IMG/VR virus record: IMGVR_UViG_3300043787_000096
Location: 1-51,630 of that record
Length of the DNA stretch: 51,630 nucleotides
DNA from: a virus
Strand: one strand, 5' to 3'
Position numbers and translations under genes: made by a program. Position 1 is the first letter of the stretch. Every line of letters begins with the position of its first letter. This document shows, in pieces, positions 6,248-46,078 of the stretch. The notes below the pieces were generated by a model. It saw only the letters and a list, made by a program, of their open reading frames with translations, made no database searches and was not told the DNA's origin.

Positions 6248-6546
6248 GCGTACCTCTTCGACGTCTCGTCTCGCCGGGTCCGTCCGCGCTGGATAGGGAT
6301 CACCTCGGCTAGCGCCGGGGAGCATGACGCCGAGTGGGCGGCGAACAGGAACTCCCCGATGCAGAGGCGCCCGTCAGCGGGAGCGGGGCGGCAGCGGGCG
6401 GTGCCGTGCTCGTCCTCGCGGCCGGCGAACGTCCCGGACTCGTCGGGGGTCAGGGCGATTGCCGCGCCGGACGGCATGAGCGCGTACAGCACGTCATGCC
6501 CGCAGTCCGGGCAGGCGATGACGCCGGTTCCTGGCTGGGCGGTCAT
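6244..6546 (-). CDS. Small zinc-ribbon-like protein
   Basis: Product of 100 residues with ATG at 6546 (ATGA overlap). The N-terminal CPDCGHDVLYALMPSG resembles half of a zinc ribbon; a second pair of cysteines (ARCRPAP, RLCIG) may complete the site. The tail is basic. Not recognised beyond the probable zinc site. Confidence 0.65.
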   Translation of the reverse strand: MTAQPGTGVIACPDCGHDVLYALMPSGAAIALTPDESGTFAGREDEHGTARCRPAPADGRLCIGEFLFAAHSASCSPALAEVIPIQRGRTRRDETSKRYA

Positions 6547-7526
6547 GCCGACCTCGCTTCCGGGTGACGCCAGTTGGCCTTGAGCGTGTTGCAGTCCCGG
6601 CAGTACGCGGGATCCGGGCCTGCCCGGAACTCGTGGACGCCTTCCGGCGCGAGGCGCGCTCTGGCGGCGCGCGTCTTGCGCTCGGCTTCGGGCCACCAGG
6701 GGCCGTCGTGCGGGAGCCGTCCGGGGTGTTTCGTCGCCGGGTCGGCGGCGAGGATCCGGATGGCCTCGCAGGCAATGGCCCAGTCCCGGTCGGCCACGGA
6801 GGGGTTTTCCAGGGCGCGGGCGACGGACCTCGCGGACCAGTCGGGCCGCGTGGCGCAGATCTCGGCAGCGATGGAATGCGTGTTTCGTCCGTTTGCGGGT
6901 TTTTCGCCATCGGGATGTTCCCCCTCGGGGACGTCAGGCAGCGCGGACGGGTCCGGGTGTTGCGGCGCGAGGGGGTAGGGGGTTCCCCCTCCGGTTTTAA
7001 AATCCCTAAATCCCCTAAGGACAGTGTCCGGCTCTGAAGCGTCCCTGAAACCGGGACCCTTGAGTCCCGGAACAAGGGACGCTTCGTTTTCAGAACCGGG
7101 ACCCTTCACGGGCTCTGAAGGGTCCCGGTTCAAGGGACGCTTCACGGGGTTATCCACAGGCGAAGAGTCTGGATCTCCGGGCCTCTTCGCCCCGTTTTGC
7201 CCGGCTGTGAGGTCTGGGTCTCCAGGCCCTCCCAGTCCGGGGATCTTGACGAAGGGGGCGATGGCGTAGGACGCCTTCACCCCGTTCCTGCCGCGCTCCA
7301 TGCGCAGCAGGACGCCCTTGTCGCACAAAGCCGCGATGACCGCGTAGCGCTGCGTCCTGGACAGGCGCAGGCGCGTGACGATCTCTGGCTTGTCCTCGAT
7401 GCCTGCGGGGCACTCACGCGAGTCATCGATGGCGGACGCTGCGAGGACGAGCAGTACGTACCGCTCCCGCCAGGTCAGTTCGGCGGGGGCGCGGCCGGCG
7501 GCTTCCATTACGAGCCGGATGCCCAT
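6543..7526 (-). CDS. Replication-initiator-like winged-helix protein with embedded origin
   Basis: Product of 327 residues. I chose the ATG at 7526 because GGGAGG sits 6 nt upstream. The N-terminal 100 residues look like the wHTH of phage replication initiators (ELTWRERYVLLVLA, then SRTQRYAVIAALCDKGVLLR). A long disordered linker is encoded by inverted and direct DNA repeats and includes VDN, whose codons form a perfect DnaA box. A C-terminal helical region ends with CRDCNTLKANWRHPE. It heads the 7.5-to-1 kb operon. The lambda O analogy is inference; it could instead be a regulator. Confidence 0.6.
   Translation of the reverse strand: MGIRLVMEAAGRAPAELTWRERYVLLVLAASAIDDSRECPAGIEDKPEIVTRLRLSRTQRYAVIAALCDKGVLLRMERGRNGVKASYAIAPFVKIPGLGGPGDPDLTAGQNGAKRPGDPDSSPVDNPVKRPLNRDPSEPVKGPGSENEASLVPGLKGPGFRDASEPDTVLRGFRDFKTGGGTPYPLAPQHPDPSALPDVPEGEHPDGEKPANGRNTHSIAAEICATRPDWSARSVARALENPSVADRDWAIACEAIRILAADPATKHPGRLPHDGPWWPEAERKTRAARARLAPEGVHEFRAGPDPAYCRDCNTLKANWRHPEARSA
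6985..7158. other. Putative replication origin 1 inside the initiator-like gene
   Basis: Seen directly: a perfect DnaA box TTATCCACA at 7150-7158; repeats CAAGGGACGCTTC at 7073-7085 and 7131-7143; CCGGGACCCTT at 7051-7061 and 7096-7106 with an inverted partner at 7118-7128; GGCTCTGAAG at 7030-7039 and 7111-7120; and an AT-rich tract at about 6993-7020 (GGTTTTAAAATCCCTAAATC), unusual in this GC-rich DNA. DnaA box, iterons and an AT-rich unwinding region together are the arrangement of lambda-type origins. No experiment supports it. Confidence 0.55.
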
Positions 7527-7783
7527 GTCAGCCTCCCGCCACGGCGGGACGAGGCGGAGCCGGGCGCGTGGTTCCTGAGCGGGTCGCCATGCGCTAACCG
7601 GGTTCCTGCGCCTTGCGCGATGAGCACTAGTCACCTTTGGTTCGGGCCTTCGTGTGGGTCGGTCAATCTAAGCATGACGCTAGCGCATGTTAATGACTCG
7701 TGTCCAGCCGTCATGCTAACCTGTCTAAGGTGATAGCCCGGCATGACTTGGCAACGTGATGCCAGGTCACCGAAGATGGGAGC
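7527..7783. promoter_or_regulatory. Divergent control region with AGCATGACG inverted repeats
   Basis: This gap separates the initiator operon (minus) from the plus-strand gene at 7784. AGCATGACG at 7671-7679 faces its exact reverse complement CGTCATGCT at 7709-7717, and a related GCATGAC lies at 7741-7747. The region is AT-richer than its surroundings. These are likely operators for one of the nearby Xre/MerR regulators; individual promoter boxes are not clear. Confidence 0.5.
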
Positions 7784-8152
7784 ATGGGTGACGTAACCGA
7801 AGAACTGCTGGCCGCCGTGGCGGCAGCGCGTGCAAGCCGCGCGCAGGCCGACGCCGACCATGAGCACGTCATCGACCTGCTCATCCAGCACCGCCGCGAA
7901 CGGCCCGAATTCGGCGTCGGCGACCTTGAGACGCTGATCGGCAAGTACCTCGACCGGGGAACGATCAGCCGCCGCACATCCCCCGCGTTCGGCGGCAAGC
8001 CGCCGCGCAAGCCGACACGCACGCGGCCCGCCGCCGTCGAGGCGACCTTGCAGCAGATGGCGACCAAGACCCGCGACCGGATCGCGCAGGGCTGCCAGGG
8101 TCCGGCCGCGCCGGAGCCGTCCGGCGGCACCCGGCCCCCGGACGGCTCCTGA
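7784..8152 (+). CDS. Hypothetical basic protein
   Basis: Product of 122 residues. The first 60 residues are helical (VTEELLAAVAAARASRAQAD) with a possible small DNA-binding region (GVGDLETLIGKYLDRGTISR); the rest is basic and proline-rich. It is divergent from the initiator-like gene and convergent with the MerR-like gene, and lies behind the AGCATGACG operators, so a regulatory role is possible. Not recognised. Confidence 0.6.
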   Translation: MGDVTEELLAAVAAARASRAQADADHEHVIDLLIQHRRERPEFGVGDLETLIGKYLDRGTISRRTSPAFGGKPPRKPTRTRPAAVEATLQQMATKTRDRIAQGCQGPAAPEPSGGTRPPDGS

Positions 8153-30058: not shown

Positions 30059-31264
30059 TCAGTCACCCTTGACGTTGACGATCTGCCGCAGCCGGTGCCG
30101 GATCTCCACGAGATCGCGGGCGTCGTTCATCACGACTTCGACGGGCTTGTATGCGCCCGGGATCTCGTCGAGGAACGCGTCCGTGTGCCGCCACTCGATG
30201 CCATCCATCGCCGCGTCGAGCTGCTCGCGGGTGAACGTCTTGCGGGCTGCCGACCGGCTGTACTCGCGCCCCGCCCCGTGCGGGGACGAGTTCAGCGACA
30301 GCGGGTTCCCCTTCCCTGTGACGACGTACGACGCGGTGCCCATCGATCCGGGGATCAGGCCCGGCTTGCCTTCGCTGGCGTCGATCGCGCCCTTGCGGGA
30401 CAGCCAGACGTGACCGGAGTGACCGGCATTCTTCGCACGCCAGTGCCGCGCGAGATCATCCGGCATCTGCTCGGTGTAGTTGTGATGACATTGGACCACC
30501 TCAAGGCCCTGCGCGGGTTCCCCGGCCCACTCGCCGAGGCAGCCGAGCACGCGGTGCATCATCTCCTGCCGGTTCAGCAGCGCGAAGTGCTGCGCCCAGC
30601 GGAGATCCCGGATGTAATCCCAGAACTCGCGGGTGTCCTCGACGAGGTAGGCGAGGTCGGGATCGGGCAGGCTGACCCACCACTTGTCGCACAGGTCGCG
30701 TGCGGCCTTGATGTGCTTGCCGGCGAGCTTGTTGCCGACGCCGCGTGATCCTGAGTGCAGGAACACCCACACGCGATCCAGCTCATCGAGGCTGATCTCG
30801 ATGAAGTGGTTGCCGCTGCCGAGCGAGCCGAGCTGCATGTTCCAGTTCGGCGCGACGGTCTCGGCGCTCTCCGACGCGTCCATCAGGACCAGCTCGCCGA
30901 TCCGGCCCTCGGTCTCCGCATCGTAGATGCCGGTGTTGTACTTGCCGGCTGATAGCGGGATGGCGTTCTCGATCGCGACGCGCAGGTCCGCCAGGTTCCC
31001 GCGGCTTCGCACGTCCTCTGCCGTGAGCTGGGTCCGTACGGCGTGCATCCCGCACCCGATGTCGACACCGACGGCGGCCGGGATGATCGCGCCGAGCGTC
31101 GGGATGACCGACCCGACCGTGGCGCCCTTGCCGAGATGCGCGTCCGGCATGAGCGCCAGATGCGGGTAGATGAACGGCATCGATGCGGTACGTTCCGCCT
31201 GCTCCCGGGTGTCCGGCTCCAGGATCGATGCCCAGTTGAGAAGCTTCTTGCTCAGTTGTTCCAT
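30059..31264 (-). CDS. rtcB: RtcB RNA ligase (3'-phosphate/5'-OH)
   Basis: Product of 401 residues, the normal bacterial RtcB size. Conserved motifs: DIGCGMHAVRT (metal-binding Cys), LGSGNHFIE, HSGSRGVGN, GSMGTASYVV and NSSPHGAGREYSR, whose His is the guanylated residue. It joins RNA 3'-phosphate (or cyclic phosphate) to 5'-OH ends with GTP and Mn, and repairs cut tRNA or rRNA. A GAGGGG site lies upstream of ATG 31264. It ends an operon with CCA-adding enzyme and RlaP-like genes, which supports tRNA repair. Confidence 0.95.
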   Translation of the reverse strand: MEQLSKKLLNWASILEPDTREQAERTASMPFIYPHLALMPDAHLGKGATVGSVIPTLGAIIPAAVGVDIGCGMHAVRTQLTAEDVRSRGNLADLRVAIENAIPLSAGKYNTGIYDAETEGRIGELVLMDASESAETVAPNWNMQLGSLGSGNHFIEISLDELDRVWVFLHSGSRGVGNKLAGKHIKAARDLCDKWWVSLPDPDLAYLVEDTREFWDYIRDLRWAQHFALLNRQEMMHRVLGCLGEWAGEPAQGLEVVQCHHNYTEQMPDDLARHWRAKNAGHSGHVWLSRKGAIDASEGKPGLIPGSMGTASYVVTGKGNPLSLNSSPHGAGREYSRSAARKTFTREQLDAAMDGIEWRHTDAFLDEIPGAYKPVEVVMNDARDLVEIRHRLRQIVNVKGD

Positions 31265-31297
31265 CGTGCAGTCACCCCTCGCGTGATGTTCACCGGT

Positions 31298-32668
31298 CTA
31301 TCCTGCCCGTGCCGTCAGCCACCGGACCGCCCCGGCCTCGTCGGCGAATTCCCCTGCGTCCTGCGCGGCCAGCGCCTCAGCGAGGACCGGCTTGAACGCC
31401 GGTCCCGGCCTCATTCCCGCCGCGATGAGGTGATCACCGGTCAGCAGCCCCCTGGCCGGGCGGTCGGTCACCTTGAGGTCCCGGCCGATCTCCATCCACG
31501 CCTCCGCCGGGTTCGGTGCGTCCGGGTCGCCCCGGCCTTTGCGGTCAGCGCCGACGGCGAGCGCCAGTTCGGCGAGGGTCGCCGGCACGAGCCGCCGCAC
31601 GAGCCGGCGGACTGCTGGTTTCGTCGGGCTGTCCGCGCAGCACATGTGCTCGCGGACGAGCGGGACGATGCGGGCCGTGATGCTCTCCGGGCAGCCGGCC
31701 GAGCGCAGGAACGCGGTCGCCGGCTCCACGCCCGCCGCAGCGTGGCCGCGGGAGGTGATCCGGCCTCCGTCCCGCTGCGTGTGCGTCACCTTCCCCGTGT
31801 CGTGCAGGAGGGCGGCGAAAACGATCACGAGGCGGTCCGTCCCGGTCAGCCCGGCCTCATCGGCGAGCCGGGCGGCCTGCGTCGCGGCGAGACCCGAATG
31901 GGCGTGCACGTCGCCTTCGGGATGCCAGCCCGGATCCTGCTCGATGCCGTGGAGCGCGGCGAGCTGCGGGAAGCACGCCTCCCATCCGGTGCCGGCCAGG
32001 GCAGTGAGCGCGGCCCGCAGATCGGTGCCCCTGGTGCCGAGTTTCGCCATCTCACCCCAGACGCGCTCGGTCGCCAGCTCCCGGTACGAGCCGCGCAGGC
32101 GGCGGCACGTGGCGGCGGTCTCCGGTGCGAGCGTGAACCCGAACCGGCCCGCGAACTGGACGGCTCGCAGGACACGCAGCGGATCCTCAGAGAACGCCGC
32201 CGACGTGTGCCGCAGCACGCCCGCTTCCAGGTCCGCTAGGCCGCCGTGGCAGTCGGTCACCTCCCCTGTTTCCGGGTCGGCCATGAGCGCGTTGATCGTG
32301 AAGTCCCGCCGGGCGCTGGCCTCCGCGAAACCGAGGTCACTGTCCGGGACGACGGCGAATCCGCGGTGACCCGCGCCCGTTTTGGATTCGCGGCGGGGAA
32401 GCGACACGTCGATCTCTGTCGCGCCGGAACGGACCTTGAGGACCCCGAACGACTTCCCGGCCTCCGTCACGTTGCCGACGCCGGACAGTGCGGCAGCGAG
32501 GATGTCAGGGCCGTCTACGCCGTACACCTCGATGTCGATGTCCTTGGAGGGCGCGCCGAGAAGCGCGTCACGGACCCAGCCGCCGACAAGCATCGGCCGG
32601 CCGCCCGCACGGCGGATAGCGGCCAGCACGCGCTCAGCGTCCGGCCCCGGTCCCGGGATCGTGGTCAC
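31298..32668 (-). CDS. cca: CCA tRNA nucleotidyltransferase with HD domain
   Basis: Product of 456 residues, GTG start at 32668 (GTGA overlap). Class II marks: LVGGWVRDALLG, DIDIEVYG (catalytic DxD), RRDFTINALM, and EDPLRVLRAVQFAGRFGF. A C-terminal HD domain shows AALLHDTGKVTHTQ and a later His. It adds or restores the CCA end of tRNA; HD domains in relatives act as 2',3'-cyclic phosphodiesterase or phosphatase. Location between RlaP-like and RtcB genes makes a tRNA-repair role likely. Confidence 0.92.
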   Translation of the reverse strand: MTTIPGPGPDAERVLAAIRRAGGRPMLVGGWVRDALLGAPSKDIDIEVYGVDGPDILAAALSGVGNVTEAGKSFGVLKVRSGATEIDVSLPRRESKTGAGHRGFAVVPDSDLGFAEASARRDFTINALMADPETGEVTDCHGGLADLEAGVLRHTSAAFSEDPLRVLRAVQFAGRFGFTLAPETAATCRRLRGSYRELATERVWGEMAKLGTRGTDLRAALTALAGTGWEACFPQLAALHGIEQDPGWHPEGDVHAHSGLAATQAARLADEAGLTGTDRLVIVFAALLHDTGKVTHTQRDGGRITSRGHAAAGVEPATAFLRSAGCPESITARIVPLVREHMCCADSPTKPAVRRLVRRLVPATLAELALAVGADRKGRGDPDAPNPAEAWMEIGRDLKVTDRPARGLLTGDHLIAAGMRPGPAFKPVLAEALAAQDAGEFADEAGAVRWLTARAG

Positions 32669-33390
32669 CGGTCCTCCCAGTAGGCTCGCCGCACGTCCTG
32701 GAGCCACGCTTCGGCTGCCGCCTCGTCGGGGCGGGCGGGAAGCTCGCCGGGAGTGAGATAGACGTTCTCCGCGTCGCTCAGCGCCTTCCGCGCCAGATCC
32801 AGGTCCCCGGCGGCTACGCGCTCGCCGAACTCCCGGCAGGTGGCCGCATCGTCAGGCAGGAGCCGCACCGGGAGATAGCCGGTCCGGTGCAGTTCCGCTC
32901 CCTGATGCAGCAGCCTCCAGAGATGGCGCGCGTGTTTCTCTGTGCGTTTGCGCGTGTCGGCGCTGAACGATCCGTCGCCACGGTTCTCCAGCTTCCCGAA
33001 CTGGCTGGTCGCGTACCCGCAGTAGGCGTTGCGGGCCATGCCTGCCGAGAGGAACTTGCTGCGGATAGCGGTCAGTGCCTCGCCTGCGGGCGTCGTCACT
33101 TCGTAACGGGGCAGCCACAGCAGTTCCGTGACCGTCGGGTTCGATTTCAGCAGCAGGGCAACCAGCTTGCCCGCCTCATGGAATGTCGCGTCAGGCTTCG
33201 AGCTGACCCACGTCGCGGCCTTCCCGACCGGCAGGTGCAGTCCGTGGAACTCCGATGTCGGGGCGGCATAGGTGCCGATCCGGTCGATGTCGGAGCCCTC
33301 GTGCGCCAGGCCGTAGGCGGTTGAGCCGGCGATGCCTGCAAGCAGGACGTTCGGCGGGGGCTTGATCTCGGGGCCGGTCACGTCGTTCAT
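32665..33390 (-). CDS. RlaP-like nucleotidyltransferase (RNA-repair-associated pol-beta family)
   Basis: Product of 241 residues from ATG 33390; the GTG at 33381 has better spacing to GGAAGG and may be the true start. The minimal nucleotidyltransferase motif GSTAYGLAHEGSDIDRIG (about 20-37) gives the two metal-binding aspartates. Further family-like parts are ATFHEAGKLVALLLKSNPTV and ELLWLP. Such proteins lie beside RNA ligases and are thought to act on RNA ends in repair. The overlap with cca makes one operon. Confidence 0.82.
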   Translation of the reverse strand: MNDVTGPEIKPPPNVLLAGIAGSTAYGLAHEGSDIDRIGTYAAPTSEFHGLHLPVGKAATWVSSKPDATFHEAGKLVALLLKSNPTVTELLWLPRYEVTTPAGEALTAIRSKFLSAGMARNAYCGYATSQFGKLENRGDGSFSADTRKRTEKHARHLWRLLHQGAELHRTGYLPVRLLPDDAATCREFGERVAAGDLDLARKALSDAENVYLTPGELPARPDEAAAEAWLQDVRRAYWEDR

Positions 33391-33412
33391 CCTTCCGTAT
33401 CCGGTGTCAGGC

Positions 33413-33934
33413 TTATCCGCGACGGACTTCCGTCTCGTCATCGAACGGCTCCAGGAGATCCCACGCATCGTCCATCCGGTTTTCCGCGCACGCGACCGTA
33501 TACGCGGCGAGGTTGCGGCGCGGCAGGTGGCCGCGCTGCTCGGCGATCAGCCCCGAATCATCCCACCGGCAGCCGGGGGCTTCCGGATAGTAGGACGACC
33601 CGGTTTCGTCGGCGCGGCGCAGCCGGGACTCCGGGCAGTCCTCCGCGAGCATCTCCGCGCGCGTCCCGGCTATCACGGGAGCCTCGACGCCGTGCGACCA
33701 TCCGACGTAGAAGTCGGAGTCCCGGTCAGGCTTGATGACCTCGCAGCGGGGGAACTGGCCGCGGGCAGTGCTCGCGGATTCCTCCAGGCGCTCGAGCTCC
33801 ACGGTGCGGACGACGGACCATCCCGTGGAGGGCAGCGCGTTCACGATCACGGCGGCGATGGCGCCAGGCTCCCTGATGCCCAGCGTGTGCGCCTGCGCGA
33901 TCGCGGTGGCGAGTACATGCAGCGGGTCGTTCAC
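33413..33934 (-). CDS. Hypothetical protein of the RNA-repair operon
   Basis: Product of 173 residues, GTG start at 33934, 2 nt before the preceding stop. Features: IVNALPSTGWSVVRTVELER, then YVGWSHGVEAPVIAGTRAEM and RNLAAYTVACAENRMDDAWD. No enzyme motif recognised. It might be an accessory of the initiator or of the repair genes. Confidence 0.65.
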   Translation of the reverse strand: MNDPLHVLATAIAQAHTLGIREPGAIAAVIVNALPSTGWSVVRTVELERLEESASTARGQFPRCEVIKPDRDSDFYVGWSHGVEAPVIAGTRAEMLAEDCPESRLRRADETGSSYYPEAPGCRWDDSGLIAEQRGHLPRRNLAAYTVACAENRMDDAWDLLEPFDDETEVRRG

Positions 33935-33936
33935 GG

Positions 33937-34602
33937 TCAGTTCCTCTCCTGGCGGCGGTTGCCGCCGTCTTGTTCACGGATCAGTGCCTGGAGCGCGTCC
34001 ATCTGCCGTTTCCGCTCCGCCTCGAACTCGTCCGGGCTCACCTCGCGCACGCGCGCACCTTTCACGGACGTTGTCAGACGGGGAACCGCAGAAGTCTGGT
34101 CGGGGATAAAAGCTTGTGGGGTTCCAGGGGTATGGGCGCTGCCCTCGTTGCGCCTTTCGCAACCAGCGTTGCGCCTTTCCGGCAAAGGTGCGCTCACGGT
34201 TGCGCCTTTCGGCGGCTCCGGAGACAGGTTATCCACAGCCTCGTCATCGAAAGACGAGATGAGGATTGCGTCTTTAGCCTCGCGCGGCACCAGGATCGGG
34301 CACTCGTAAGTAACCGCCCGTCCGCCGCGACAGCGACCGCTCGTCGCGTACACGGGACGCCCGTCCTTGCCGGTAGACAGCGGAACCCGCAACTCGAAGC
34401 CGTGCCTCCCGAGCCGCGCCAGGATCGAGCGCAGGCTGCCCGGCTCCAGCCCGGATTCCTCGCAGAGCTGCTCGTTGGAGATGTAGCCGCGCCGCGTCCG
34501 GTCGTTGCAGACATCGGCAAGGATCATCGCGACGACGCGTTCCCCGGCCGTCCAGTCGGGCGGCATCCCGGCGCGGAGCATCCGGGTCAGGTCATGACCC
34601 AC
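33937..34602 (-). CDS. Second replication-initiator-like winged-helix protein with embedded origin
   Basis: Product of 221 residues, GTG start at 34602. The N-terminal wHTH (DWTAGERVVAMILADVCNDR, then GYISNEQLCEESGLEPGSLR, SILARLGRHGFELRV) matches phage initiator helix-turn-helix domains. The linker includes VDN encoded by a perfect DnaA box and is built over three 12-bp iterons. The C-terminus is a charged helix. It leads the operon that includes the RNA-repair genes. Initiator role is inferred from the layout shared with 6543-7526. Confidence 0.65.
   Translation of the reverse strand: MGHDLTRMLRAGMPPDWTAGERVVAMILADVCNDRTRRGYISNEQLCEESGLEPGSLRSILARLGRHGFELRVPLSTGKDGRPVYATSGRCRGGRAVTYECPILVPREAKDAILISSFDDEAVDNLSPEPPKGATVSAPLPERRNAGCERRNEGSAHTPGTPQAFIPDQTSAVPRLTTSVKGARVREVSPDEFEAERKRQMDALQALIREQDGGNRRQERN
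34095..34237. other. Putative replication origin 2: iterons and DnaA box
   Basis: GTTGCGCCTTTC is present three times in direct orientation at 34147-34158, 34168-34179 and 34199-34210. Spacings are 21 and 31 bp, close to two and three DNA turns. A perfect DnaA box TTATCCACA lies at 34229-34237, and AT-rich GGGGATAAAAGCTTGTGG at about 34103-34120. All lie inside the initiator-like gene. Confidence 0.65.
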
Positions 34603-34806: not shown

Positions 34807-35061
34807 ATGAGCGCCGAACCAGCAGAGAGCGCGGGACTCCCCAACGTGATACAGGTCGGCGGCGAGAAAGCCGTCGTCGTCCCCTACGACGAGTACATCG
34901 TCCTCGCCGCCCTCAAAAGGCGCGCCGCGCCGGAAGAGATCGACGAGGCGTGGACAGACGCGTGGATCACCGAGCACGAGGCATGGAAGGCCGCAGGGCG
35001 TCCCGGGGGCACCATCCCCCACGAGGAAGTCAGGGCGGAACTGCTCGGCGGCAGCCGGTGA
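34807..35061 (+). CDS. Phd/YefM-like antitoxin
   Basis: Product of 84 residues. The N-terminal AGLPNVIQVGGEKAVVVPYD continues as EYIVLAALKRRAA, the typical beta-beta-helix DNA-binding part of Phd/YefM-like antitoxins; the acidic C-terminal half would wrap the toxin. Its stop overlaps the GTG of a RelE/ParE-like gene (GTGA), the classic antitoxin-toxin order. Confidence 0.75.
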   Translation: MSAEPAESAGLPNVIQVGGEKAVVVPYDEYIVLAALKRRAAPEEIDEAWTDAWITEHEAWKAAGRPGGTIPHEEVRAELLGGSR

Positions 35062-35291
35062 GGATCCGCTGGGAAGAGCCGGCGAAGCTCGCGGTACGCG
35101 AGAAGTTCATGAAGGACCAGGCCGCGATGGCGGCAATCAACGCCGCCGTCGACTCATTAGCCGAAGATCCCGGACCGGCCGCCGCGTTCGTGCGCGGCGG
35201 CTACCGGCGGCTGCGCGCGGGCGATTTCCGCATCCTGTACGAGATCGAGGACGGCACCATCGTCATCGTGCGCGTTGACCGGAGGGCCTAG
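35058..35291 (+). CDS. RelE/ParE-superfamily toxin
   Basis: Product of 77 residues, GTG start at 35058. It shows MRIRWEEPAKLAVREKF, a helix DSLAEDPGPAAAFV, and the end YRRLRAGDFRILYEIEDGTI followed by VIVRVDRR, the RelE/ParE fold with strands GDFRILYEI and IVIVRV. It likely cuts ribosome-bound mRNA (RelE) or inhibits gyrase (ParE). Stabilises the element by post-segregational killing. Confidence 0.85.
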   Translation: MRIRWEEPAKLAVREKFMKDQAAMAAINAAVDSLAEDPGPAAAFVRGGYRRLRAGDFRILYEIEDGTIVIVRVDRRA

Positions 35292-41966: not shown

Positions 41967-42269
41967 ATGAACCAGGCCACTGCACCCGTAACCGTCAGCC
42001 CCGGCCAGCGGGCCGACATACTGAGGTTCGCCAGCTGGCTGCTCACGCACGCGGACCGGGCCGATACCCGGCAGGTCCTGGACAGCTCGGCACCGCTGCT
42101 CGAGTGGGCATCCTCGGCTGCGGACAGTACAGACCTGCGGTGCCGCATGGCCGCCATGCAGCGGGCGCACGACAACACCGCAGCACGGCCCGGCACCCTG
42201 TCGCCTGCCCAGTTCCTCGTCCGGGCCGACGGGTACTACCGCTTCATCACCGGGGGTGGCACCGGGTGA
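41967..42269 (+). CDS. Hypothetical helical protein
   Basis: Product of 100 residues with ACGGAGAG before ATG 41967. ILRFASWLLTHADRADTRQV and CRMAAMQRAHDNTA are helical, and the end LVRADGYYRFITGGG is distinctive. Stop overlaps the GTG of the transfer ATPase. Confidence 0.6.
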   Translation: MNQATAPVTVSPGQRADILRFASWLLTHADRADTRQVLDSSAPLLEWASSAADSTDLRCRMAAMQRAHDNTAARPGTLSPAQFLVRADGYYRFITGGGTG

Positions 42270-44359
42270 CCGAGCCCGAGATCACCCCGGCGAACCTGCG
42301 CCGCGCCCCCGCCGAGCGGGCGGCGCGTGCCGTGCTGCCCGTCTCCGGCCTGGTGTGGGGCGCGGCGGAGATCATGCACGCCTGCGCGTGGCCCGGCTCG
42401 CTCGACATCACCCTGGTCGCGGCCACGGGGACCGCTGTCGCCTACGGCGTCGCGGCGAAGAAGGGCTGGACGTGGCGGCTCCCGTCGTGGACCGCTTTCG
42501 GCGGGGCGTGGATGGCGTTCGCGGTAAATGCCGGGCCGCTCGCAGGATGGCCGTACGCCCCCCTCACCTGGGGGTGGGGCGTGACGGCGATCACCGCGTG
42601 GAAGCTCGCCCACCGGCACGAGGCGGTCGTGGAGGCACGGGACAAGCGGCTGGCCCGCGCCGGATGGCTGGAGAAGTCCCGGAGCTGGGGGCTGCACGGC
42701 ACGCACCTGAAGGACTACGGGAGAACCAGGGTCGGCGAGCGGTACCTCGTCTGGACGAAAGGCAGCGGCAGGCGCGCCAGCGCGGTCGCCGGGAACCGGA
42801 ACCTCAGGGAGGACATTGCCGAACACGAGGGACTCGACATGGAGCGCGTCCAGATCCGGTCCGTGCGCCCCGGTCTCGTTGAGATCAGCATCGAGTACGA
42901 CGATCCGTGGAAGCACCCGGTCCCGCACCCGCTGTTCGATGACGCCCCGGAGATCGACCTGTCGGGCCCGTACAGCATCATGGAGCCCGCGGTCGTCGGC
43001 CAGGACCCGGCGAGCGGGGAGCTGCTGTCGATCACGCTGTACGACGAGATCGGCGGCAAGAGCGTCAGCTTCACGGCCCGGCGCGGCATGGGCAAAACGG
43101 TCCTGCTGAACTGCCTCAGCGAGCGCATCACCAAAGCTGGCGACGCGATCCAGTTCCGGATCAACCTGTCCGACGTGGGGCTGTCGGAAGCGGAGCGGTG
43201 GGGACCCGCGTGCCACCTGACGGCGTTCGGCCCGCACCAGGCGGCCAGGGCCGCCCGGGTGCTGGAGATCGCCAAGGGCATCATCGCGTGGCGTGCCGCC
43301 CGGTACGCGGGCCGCAAGTACGTCCCCTCCCCGCAGGACCCCGCGGTCTTCATCATCTTCGACGAGGCAGACTCGGCAAAGTCGGCCCCGAATCTCGCCA
43401 GGCAGATGGACGACGTGGCGACGAAGGGGCGCCAGTTCGGCGTGAACCCGGTCCGTGCCGGGCAGCGCGGGACGCAGGACTACGGCTCGGCGAAGATGCG
43501 CTCCCAGGATGACGTGGTGTGCGTCGGGGCGGTCGGCCGGGACAGCGAGATCTACCATGCGGCGGGGAGTGCCGGCTACCAGCTCCCGGACATCGCGGCG
43601 TACACAGGTGGCCGCCCCGGCGGGTGGGCGATCACGTCGCCTGGCGCGGGATACACCAAGGGCCGGTCGTTCGACTTGGACGAGGTGCGGGATATCCAGG
43701 CGATCGTCGCGGAGCGGGCGCACTGGCAGCCGGACCTCCACCCCGATTGCCGGGAATTCCTAGGGGAAAAGTATGAAATTCTCCTGAGCACCGACGTGTA
43801 CGCGAAATGGGCACTCACCCACCGCCGCGACGGCACCTCCGCCCCCGTCACCGTCCGTGCCGCGGCGCCCCCTCCCCCCGGCAGCCCCGGCACCGCGGTA
43901 CAGCCGGGCGCGCTCCTGACCGACGACGACTACCTGAGGCACCTGGACAAGACCATGACGATGGACCCCGCCGACAACGCGGCATTCTCCGCCCTCGACG
44001 CGAAGCTCGCGGGCCTGCGCAAGACCCATGAGGAGACCGCGGCCATGAGGGCGGCTGCCCCGGACGGCAACCCCGGGAAGGAAGCCGAGATGGCAGAGGC
44101 CCGGTGGGAACAGGCCGCACGGCAAACGGAGATCCCTCCGCTTATCCGTGAACAACTGTTCACCTACCTTGCCGGGGAAGGGATGAGCGGACGCCGCATC
44201 GTCGACGCCCTCGCCGAAGACTTCCCCGCCGACAAGCCGACGCGCAATGCGGTCATGCTCTACCTGAACCGCCTCCGCTACGAGAAGAAGGCATACGTCC
44301 ACGGGAAAGCAGCGCTCGCCCGGTGGCGTCTCGTCACGGATGGCGGTGACGGATCGTGA
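42266..44359 (+). CDS. FtsK/TraB-like DNA translocase, membrane-anchored
   Basis: Product of 697 residues, GTG 42266. The N-terminal 115 residues hold hydrophobic segments (probable membrane anchor). The motor has Walker A ARRGMGKT (271-278, where the first Gly is replaced by Ala) and Walker B FIIFDEAD (D366, E367). MDDVATKGRQFGVNPV fits FtsK/TraB motors. The C-terminal part (RDGT linker, then IREQLFTYLAGEGMSGRRIV) ends in a wHTH-like domain that may read DNA sites. In actinobacterial plasmids such a protein alone moves double-stranded DNA between cells. Confidence 0.85.
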   Translation: MTEPEITPANLRRAPAERAARAVLPVSGLVWGAAEIMHACAWPGSLDITLVAATGTAVAYGVAAKKGWTWRLPSWTAFGGAWMAFAVNAGPLAGWPYAPLTWGWGVTAITAWKLAHRHEAVVEARDKRLARAGWLEKSRSWGLHGTHLKDYGRTRVGERYLVWTKGSGRRASAVAGNRNLREDIAEHEGLDMERVQIRSVRPGLVEISIEYDDPWKHPVPHPLFDDAPEIDLSGPYSIMEPAVVGQDPASGELLSITLYDEIGGKSVSFTARRGMGKTVLLNCLSERITKAGDAIQFRINLSDVGLSEAERWGPACHLTAFGPHQAARAARVLEIAKGIIAWRAARYAGRKYVPSPQDPAVFIIFDEADSAKSAPNLARQMDDVATKGRQFGVNPVRAGQRGTQDYGSAKMRSQDDVVCVGAVGRDSEIYHAAGSAGYQLPDIAAYTGGRPGGWAITSPGAGYTKGRSFDLDEVRDIQAIVAERAHWQPDLHPDCREFLGEKYEILLSTDVYAKWALTHRRDGTSAPVTVRAAAPPPPGSPGTAVQPGALLTDDDYLRHLDKTMTMDPADNAAFSALDAKLAGLRKTHEETAAMRAAAPDGNPGKEAEMAEARWEQAARQTEIPPLIREQLFTYLAGEGMSGRRIVDALAEDFPADKPTRNAVMLYLNRLRYEKKAYVHGKAALARWRLVTDGGDGS

Positions 44360-45128: not shown

Positions 45129-46078
45129 TGAGCCGAAATGATCATGAAGGGAACGCGACGATGAACCGTATGGGTGTTCACTCCGCAGGGAAGGGCGGCC
45201 CGCTGCGCCGCGCGTGGATCGCCGCATGGATCGTCACGTTCGCCATGGGCGGCACCACCATGGCGTTCCAGGTCTTCCACTCCGTTACCCGCGGCCACAT
45301 GCCATGGCCGCTGGCCATCCTCTACGGCATCATGCCGCTGCTCATCGCGATGCTCATCCTGGAGATCGTCGCCGAGTGGCACGCATCCTCGTGGGTGGCG
45401 AAGGGCGTCGCGTACACGATCATGCTCGGCTCGATGTACATGTCGGCGAGCGGCACCGGGGCTGTCGTCATGTACGCCGCGCCGCCCCACTTCTCGCTGC
45501 TGTTCGGCGCGCTGCTGGACGCCGCCGAACTGCTCGCCGCGTTCTTCATCATGAACGGGCCGCGCGCCGCGGACGAAGCCGCGGAAGCCGCCGCGCAAGC
45601 CCAGCGTGACGCCGCGCTGCGAGCCGCGTTCAGTGCCGAGATGGACGCCGAACGGGAGGCGCGGATCACAGCCGAAGCCGCCGCCGGGAAGCTCGCGGAC
45701 GACCTCTCGGCGGCCCGCGCGGAAGCCGCCAGGGCGGTCGCGGACGCGGAAGTTCTCGCCCGGAAACTCGACGCCGCCAAGGGCGGTCCTCGCGGACGCA
45801 AGACCGGTCCCAGGTCGTCAGCCAGGACCGGTCCTAAGGCCGGTTCCGAGACCGGTCCTGAGGCCATGACGATCGAGGCGAAGATCCTGGAGATCCTCGA
45901 CGAAGCAGCCAAGTCGGGGCGTGAGGTGCGTGCCCCGGAACTCGTCGAGAGGACCGGTTGCAGCGACGGCTACGCCCGCAAGACCCTGCGCAAGCTGAAC
46001 GCACGGGACCGCCCCCGTGACATCGTTGATGACCGGTCCTCGGATCCGGTCCAGGACCGCGGGGAGGACCGGTCATGA
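45128..46078 (+). CDS. DUF2637/SpdB-like spread protein with C-terminal HTH
   Basis: Product of 316 residues. Four hydrophobic segments in the N-terminal 145 residues (AWIAAWIVTFAMGGTTMAFQ; LAILYGIMPLLIAMLILEIV; GVAYTIMLGSMYMSASGTGA; LLFGALLDAAELLAAFFIMN) match the DUF2637 family of Streptomyces plasmid spread (Spd) proteins. A coiled coil (AEMDAEREARITAEAAAGKL) and a C-terminal HTH (EILDEAAKSGREVRAPELVE, then RTGCSDGYARKTLRKL) follow. The C-terminal codons overlap an array of ACCGGT palindromes. Confidence 0.8.
   Translation: MSRNDHEGNATMNRMGVHSAGKGGPLRRAWIAAWIVTFAMGGTTMAFQVFHSVTRGHMPWPLAILYGIMPLLIAMLILEIVAEWHASSWVAKGVAYTIMLGSMYMSASGTGAVVMYAAPPHFSLLFGALLDAAELLAAFFIMNGPRAADEAAEAAAQAQRDAALRAAFSAEMDAEREARITAEAAAGKLADDLSAARAEAARAVADAEVLARKLDAAKGGPRGRKTGPRSSARTGPKAGSETGPEAMTIEAKILEILDEAAKSGREVRAPELVERTGCSDGYARKTLRKLNARDRPRDIVDDRSSDPVQDRGEDRS
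45801..46075. repeat. Array of ACCGGT palindromes in the 3' part of the spd-like gene
   Basis: Core GACCGGT(C) or ACCGGTT appears around 45802, 45826, 45850, 45953, 46031 and 46068, the best being AGGACCGGTCCT at 45824-45835. Related GGCCGGTT (45838) and ATCCGGTC (46044) lie between. The first three are about 24-26 bp apart. Repeated encoded TGP and DRS residues follow from this. A cis-acting binding locus is plausible. Confidence 0.6.

Follow-up and report, generated by a model that had tools for sequence, protein, structure and literature searches.

The minus-strand open reading frame at positions 33937..34602 of the window, which is the whole 51,630-base linear IMG/VR record (71% G+C), is intact, encodes a 221-aa winged helix-turn-helix (wHTH) initiator-like protein, and is probably a second theta-type initiator gene with a candidate, DnaA-assisted origin inside its own coding sequence. 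An earlier note on this DNA had described this gene, here called unit 2, as a second initiator that has phased iterons and a DnaA box of its own, and the description held: four related loci and a second unit in a related contig, G001, show the same build.

Three exact copies of GTTGCGCCTTTC lie on the plus strand within the gene, at 34199..34210, 34168..34179, and 34147..34158 (copies 1 to 3 in gene order; GAAAGGCGCAAC on the coding strand), with copy 2 placed 31 bp from copy 1 and copy 3 placed 21 bp from copy 2. The DnaA box TTATCCACA at 34229..34237 (plus strand; TGTGGATAA on the coding strand) starts 19 bp past the end of the last plus-strand iteron and is read A-V-D-N. The repeats, their 21/31 spacing, the box 19 bp on, and the VDN that it encodes are thus exactly as the earlier note had given them. 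Along the coding strand, the order is wHTH, TGTGGATAA, GAAAGGCGCAAC, 31 bp, GAAAGGCGCAAC, 21 bp, and GAAAGGCGCAAC (start to start), which is the long-then-short spacing also found in relatives, and the three iterons and the box all sit in the part of the gene that encodes a disordered linker. The iterons begin at offsets 392, 423, and 444, placing them in frames 2, 0, and 0, so that the first is translated as PKGAT and the other two as ERRN. Since the copies lie in two frames, the repetition is at the DNA level, and a reading of the iterons as a peptide repeat was ruled out. Two degenerate iteron-like AAAGGTGCG sequences were also found, one at 34184..34192 (plus strand, orientation opposite to the iterons) and one at 34054..34062 (minus strand, oriented as the iterons). 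A weak candidate melting region, the low-stability 30-mer at 34105..34134 (minus strand), begins 12 bp past the last iteron and is the second lowest of the gene at 1.37 kcal/step (gene mean, 1.62). Judged by the general features of iteron-type theta origins, helically phased direct repeats and an adjoining DnaA box are both present, while the A+T-rich unwinding element that stands out in unit 1 and the orthologs of that gene (1.15 to 1.22 kcal/step in unit 1 and relatives) is weak in unit 2 (about 1.37). G+C content by codon position is 0.68/0.53/0.77 across the gene, and the third-position value, 0.84 over the wHTH part, falls to 0.62 over the linker, as would be expected if the linker DNA has another duty.

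We asked how readily such an arrangement could arise by chance. Across the whole window, GTTGCGCCTTTC is the sole nontrivial 12-mer with three copies inside 150 bp, and an exact 12-mer triple appeared in 2 of 20,000 codon permutations of the unit 2 gene and in none of 20,000 synonymous shuffles. With up to two mismatches allowed, the motif by itself is no rarer than expected by chance; what is significant is the clustering of three exact copies. A scan of five records (454 kb) for clusters of at least three near-identical 12-mers returned exactly four whose spacing is not codon phased: unit 2 of the window, the second unit of G001, and the unit 1 loci of contigs G002 and G003. All other clusters are ordinary coding repeats, spaced by multiples of 3; the unit 1 iterons of the window and G001, too degenerate for a 12-mer scan, emerged with a less strict pattern. 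Five CGTGCCCGGACG repeats in G003 (L027:9108-9227), spaced 27 bp apart, are codon phased and hence probably a peptide repeat. DnaA boxes show a similar concentration. The sequence TTATCCACA occurs twice in the 51.6-kb window (0.02 expected), at 7150 and 34229, each time inside an initiator-like unit. With the pattern TTRTCCACA, both boxes of the window (0.14 expected) and both boxes of G001 (0.38 expected) fall inside units, that is, 4/4 together, with about 0.5 expected over 184 kb. The single TTRTCCACA box of G002 is located in unit 1, and the box of G004 has no iterons near it. Scans of viral contigs with paired-iteron and box-plus-iteron DNA patterns gave no matches.

Pfam scans of the unit 2 protein returned weak HTH_36 and HTH_24 matches only, with HTH_36 (PF13730) at 18.1 to 20.9 bits against a cut-off of 25; they did not detect the RepA_N domain (PF06970), and neither phrog_391 nor any other PHROG matched at an E value of ≤1. 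The AlphaFold model, built from a thin alignment with a mean pLDDT of 50 (about 60 to 77 in the helical core), predicts a helix-helix-helix-wing arrangement (helices at residues 2-11, 19-33, 43-50, and 54-66; wing strands at 72-77, 83-86, and 98-100), followed by the disordered linker and a C-terminal helix. The wHTH-coding part, about residues 1 to 100, corresponds to 34303..34602, and the predicted C-terminal helix (residues 190-213), which contains DEFEAERK, to 33964..34035 (both minus strand). The model thus bears out the placement of repeats and box inside a wHTH gene, although HTH_36 scored below its cut-off. A Foldseek search with this model found generic winged helices only (E ≥ 0.005), mainly regulators of the MarR/TFE type. 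In place of the C-terminal domain seen in unit 1, unit 2 has only the short predicted helix. No close homologs of the protein were found in plasmids, phages, or viral or genome contigs.

Unit 1 (6543..7634, minus strand) encodes a 363-aa protein composed of a wHTH, a linker, and a C-terminal domain and matches phrog_270, a replication initiation protein (E = 0.0026). Its orthologs (L004, L005, and L022), at 43 to 57% identity, lie on the IMG/VR contigs G001 (132 kb), G002 (125 kb), and G003 (92 kb), and much of the gene content of the window is common to G001 and G002. The gene contains a DnaA box (7150..7158, plus strand), four forward copies of the iteron sAAGsrTCCC (7053..7143, minus strand) spaced by 36, 22, and 23 bp, and an A+T-rich melting region (6995..7024, minus strand) that has the lowest stability in the gene and ranks at a fraction of 4e-5 among 30-mers of the window. 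Across the four contigs, the family layout is wHTH, DnaA box (absent in G003), frame-shifting iterons set about two and three helical turns apart, and a low-stability stretch; the iterons differ slightly in sequence, lie between the wHTH and the C-terminal domain, and are directly followed in all four contigs by the gene's least stable stretch. The distance from box to first iteron (start to start) is +15 in the window and in G001, followed in both by spacings of 36/22/23, and +16 in G002, followed by 35/22/23, while G003, having no box, shows 36/33/22/33/23; the corresponding values for unit 2 are +27 and 31/21. The iteron reading frame shifts in every member compared. The unit 1 protein of G001 has a weak match to phrog_391, and the DnaA box in its gene reads TTGTCCACA, which is the variant favored in Streptomyces. 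Propionibacterium phage G4 has the C-terminal domain of unit 1 as gp63, encoded downstream of gp62, a "replication initiation protein," and the gap between these genes (L036:1422-2336) holds short repeats of the GTCACG type and an A+T-rich stretch. Read by eye, gp62/gp63 resembles this module, except that the origin would lie between two genes rather than inside one. The earlier note had proposed structure prediction of both initiators and a homologue search with flanking genes. Prediction produced a winged helix for unit 2, while the model of unit 1 gave no significant match in the structure search; the homologue search recovered the orthologs of unit 1 but no close homolog of unit 2.

The second unit of G001 is a 254-aa wHTH gene (L009:8344-9108) that was found with the clustered-repeat scan and contains five iterons spaced by 48/34/22/22 bp, with TTGTCCACA within the array; its protein weakly matches phrog_391, "replication initiation O-like" (E = 0.0029). 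It lies at the end of a minus-strand arm, about 4 kb before a homolog of window gene 38014 and the transfer block, and the position of unit 2 corresponds, at the end of the minus-strand arm and ahead of the transfer block. A ParE-type toxin-antitoxin pair adjoins unit 2 (34846..35291, plus strand) and has a homolog near the second unit of G001. In six-frame translations of the 454 kb, the C-terminal pattern [DE]FEAxR[KR], picked after both proteins had been seen, occurs only in these two units. Their C-terminal similarity is modest (equaled in 26 of 3,000 shuffles), and whole-protein similarity is not significant (E = 0.25). Since the pattern is post hoc and the proteins are otherwise too diverged, orthology is argued mainly by position and layout. 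When a tblastn search did not find unit 2 in G001, a recent insertion or fusion was at first favored; this was dropped once the repeat scan had exposed the second unit there. With both units present in G001 at corresponding positions, the double layout was probably inherited within this element family, and the fusion of two replicons suggested in the earlier note is not supported as a one-off event. Repeat, box, and pattern scans did not reveal a second unit in G002 or G003, which suggests that it is dispensable.

Unit 2 has its closest relative in the 42-kb circular plasmid pPaSha2 of Pseudonocardia alni, at an unannotated wHTH locus (CP052773.1, 16519 onward) with 29% identity (pairwise E = 1e-9; 0 of 3,000 shuffles). 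This locus has the layout of the unit 1 family, with wHTH, box, frame-shifting iterons, and low-stability stretch. Related wHTHs, adjoining DnaA-type boxes, and the iteron core GAAAGGsGC are common to both loci; pPaSha2 differs in having more iterons (GAAAGGGGCCCA, with spacing ending in 34/22/22, that is, 22 bp among the last three), two boxes next to them, and a C-terminal part that, by eye, appears to continue in another reading frame. The locus (L020:4001-4773) is missing as a gene from the table of the plasmid collection, and our literature search found no published description of it. An HTH protein of pLS1-1, with HTH_36 above the cut-off, was considered as another relative and rejected, its gene having no iterons.

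Initiators with intragenic origins are known from other systems. In Rep of the staphylococcal plasmid pSK41, a RepA_N protein, the N-terminal wHTH binds Rep boxes central in the rep gene, and the linker is origin encoded (PMC5703833). Unit 2 likewise has repeats inside the gene between N- and C-terminal parts, and its setting in a transfer element is comparable to that of the large conjugative plasmid pSK41; it differs in having no detected RepA_N domain and only a short C-terminal helix and in being actinobacterial with 71% G+C. The C-terminal domain of RepA_N initiators (PF06970) contacts the host primase, whereas unit 2 has only the predicted short helix at this end. DnaA boxes were not detected in staphylococcal plasmids (PMC5703833), so the box in unit 2 sets it apart from those systems. 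The hybrid Rep of pPR9/pUSA03 has an N terminus of pfam13730 (HTH_36), and the pPR9 rep region replicates as a minireplicon and is compatible with pSK41 (PMC5703833). Unit 2 has a comparable N-terminal HTH_36 match, which scores below the cut-off, while the C-terminal domain and host phylum differ. Phage lambda O resembles unit 2, as proposed here, in that ori-lambda is an iteron origin inside the initiator gene; unit 2 differs in its adjoining DnaA box and in having no phrog_391 match, no P-like helicase loader identified, and no lytic genes seen. In alphaproteobacterial repABC plasmids, oriV lies inside repC, which encodes RepC (PMC3155836). The origin is thus within the initiator coding sequence, as proposed for unit 2, but is without iterons or DnaA boxes.

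By analogy with these systems, the N-terminal winged helix of unit 2 would bind the GAAAGGCGCAAC iterons, which would present themselves on one helix face at spacings of about three and two turns, and host DnaA would bind the adjoining TTATCCACA. Together, the two proteins may melt the low-stability stretch that follows the iterons, with the short helix of the C-terminal part perhaps helping to recruit components of the host replisome. DNA binding, melting, helicase loading, and origin firing are all predicted here from sequence. Under this proposal, the linker would exist because the origin must be encoded there, and unit 2 would work like pSK41/pPR9 Rep or lambda O with a DnaA box added.

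Among the points against an initiator are that there are only three iterons, that the melting candidate is weak, and that the C-terminal domain of unit 1 is missing. They make a decayed or auxiliary replicon a real rival, if an unlikely one. Unit 2 would then be a former, perhaps captured, initiator with a silent origin, kept for promoter self-repression or for iteron incompatibility and copy control. Its absence from G002 and G003 would agree with this, and staphylococcal plasmids offer examples of a second replicon that has been inactivated (PMC5703833). However, the ORF of unit 2 is intact, its iterons are letter-perfect, its DnaA box has the full consensus, and G001 has retained a five-iteron second unit at the corresponding place.

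Unit 2 stands first in a closely packed operon on the minus strand, in which it is followed by genes for a 173-aa protein, a nucleotidyltransferase, a CCA enzyme, and RtcB. The RtcB ligase, the CCA-type tRNA nucleotidyltransferase, and the second nucleotidyltransferase (30059-33441) form an apparent RNA-repair operon. With unit 2 at the head of these genes, a role as plain transcription regulator of the operon, with the repeats as operators, is conceivable, and the fold search yielded mainly MarR/TFE-type regulators; we nevertheless regard it as very improbable. The repeats lie within the gene beside a DnaA box and not at a promoter, the same anatomy is found in plasmid and phage initiator genes, and the three RNA-repair genes of G001 stand elsewhere, in a different order, with no unit 2 adjoining. 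Hardest to credit is a chance or low-complexity repeat in the disordered linker. Linkers do tolerate repeats, and matches to the relaxed motif are common, but the shuffling results (0 to 2 in 20,000), the frame change between copies, and the recurrence of the layout in relatives argue strongly against it.

If unit 2 is a second initiator, each unit should have a specificity of its own, since unit 1 is a distinct initiator whose iterons differ. A tentative and rather unlikely possibility is that the family keeps two compatible origins in two initiator genes, one by the recombination genes for maintenance and one by the transfer block for establishment or transfer, with rapid diversification of the winged helix and iterons of the second, which might serve to escape incompatibility. 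Two units in one element are less unusual than the earlier note had supposed, as 11% of Staphylococcus aureus theta plasmids have two initiators (PMC5703833). A conserved pair of candidate origins with unrelated iterons in one element would open the old question of why a plasmid maintains two replicons to direct testing. Known initiators with intragenic origins are few, and unit 2 would also add to them a branch from actinobacteria that has DnaA boxes. Furthermore, frame-shifting repeats plus a DnaA box in a wHTH gene offer a sequence-only test that finds such candidate origins in unannotated elements, as in G001.

The record is filed as a virus, yet it looks like a soil actinobacterial transfer element, since no virion gene was recognized among the proteins scanned (a subset of the window's ORFs) and a gene scan found an FtsK-like gene, ERF, the ParE-type pair, and methyltransferases. 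The FtsK-like putative transfer ATPase (42266..44359, plus strand), in the block downstream of unit 2, is similar to FtsK-like proteins of Streptomyces plasmids and has homologs in G001 and G002; a weak terminase-like match (E = 0.0089) falls on this same ATPase. With a transfer gene present and no virion gene recognized among the scanned proteins, the separate lytic origin raised in the earlier note is without support. The replication types of AICEs are RepSA, RepAM, and Prim-Pol (PMC3218068). No RepAM (DUF3631) or Prim-Pol Pfam domain was found in the proteins scanned, a subset of ORFs searched without a RepSA model. Cumulative GC skew over the window has its maximum at 7832, just upstream of unit 1, at an amplitude too small to interpret, and is uninformative, giving the origin hypothesis no support. 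A further repeat, CAAGACCGGTCC... in three copies (45799-45858), is a codon-phased 24-bp tandem within the predicted gene 45161-46078.
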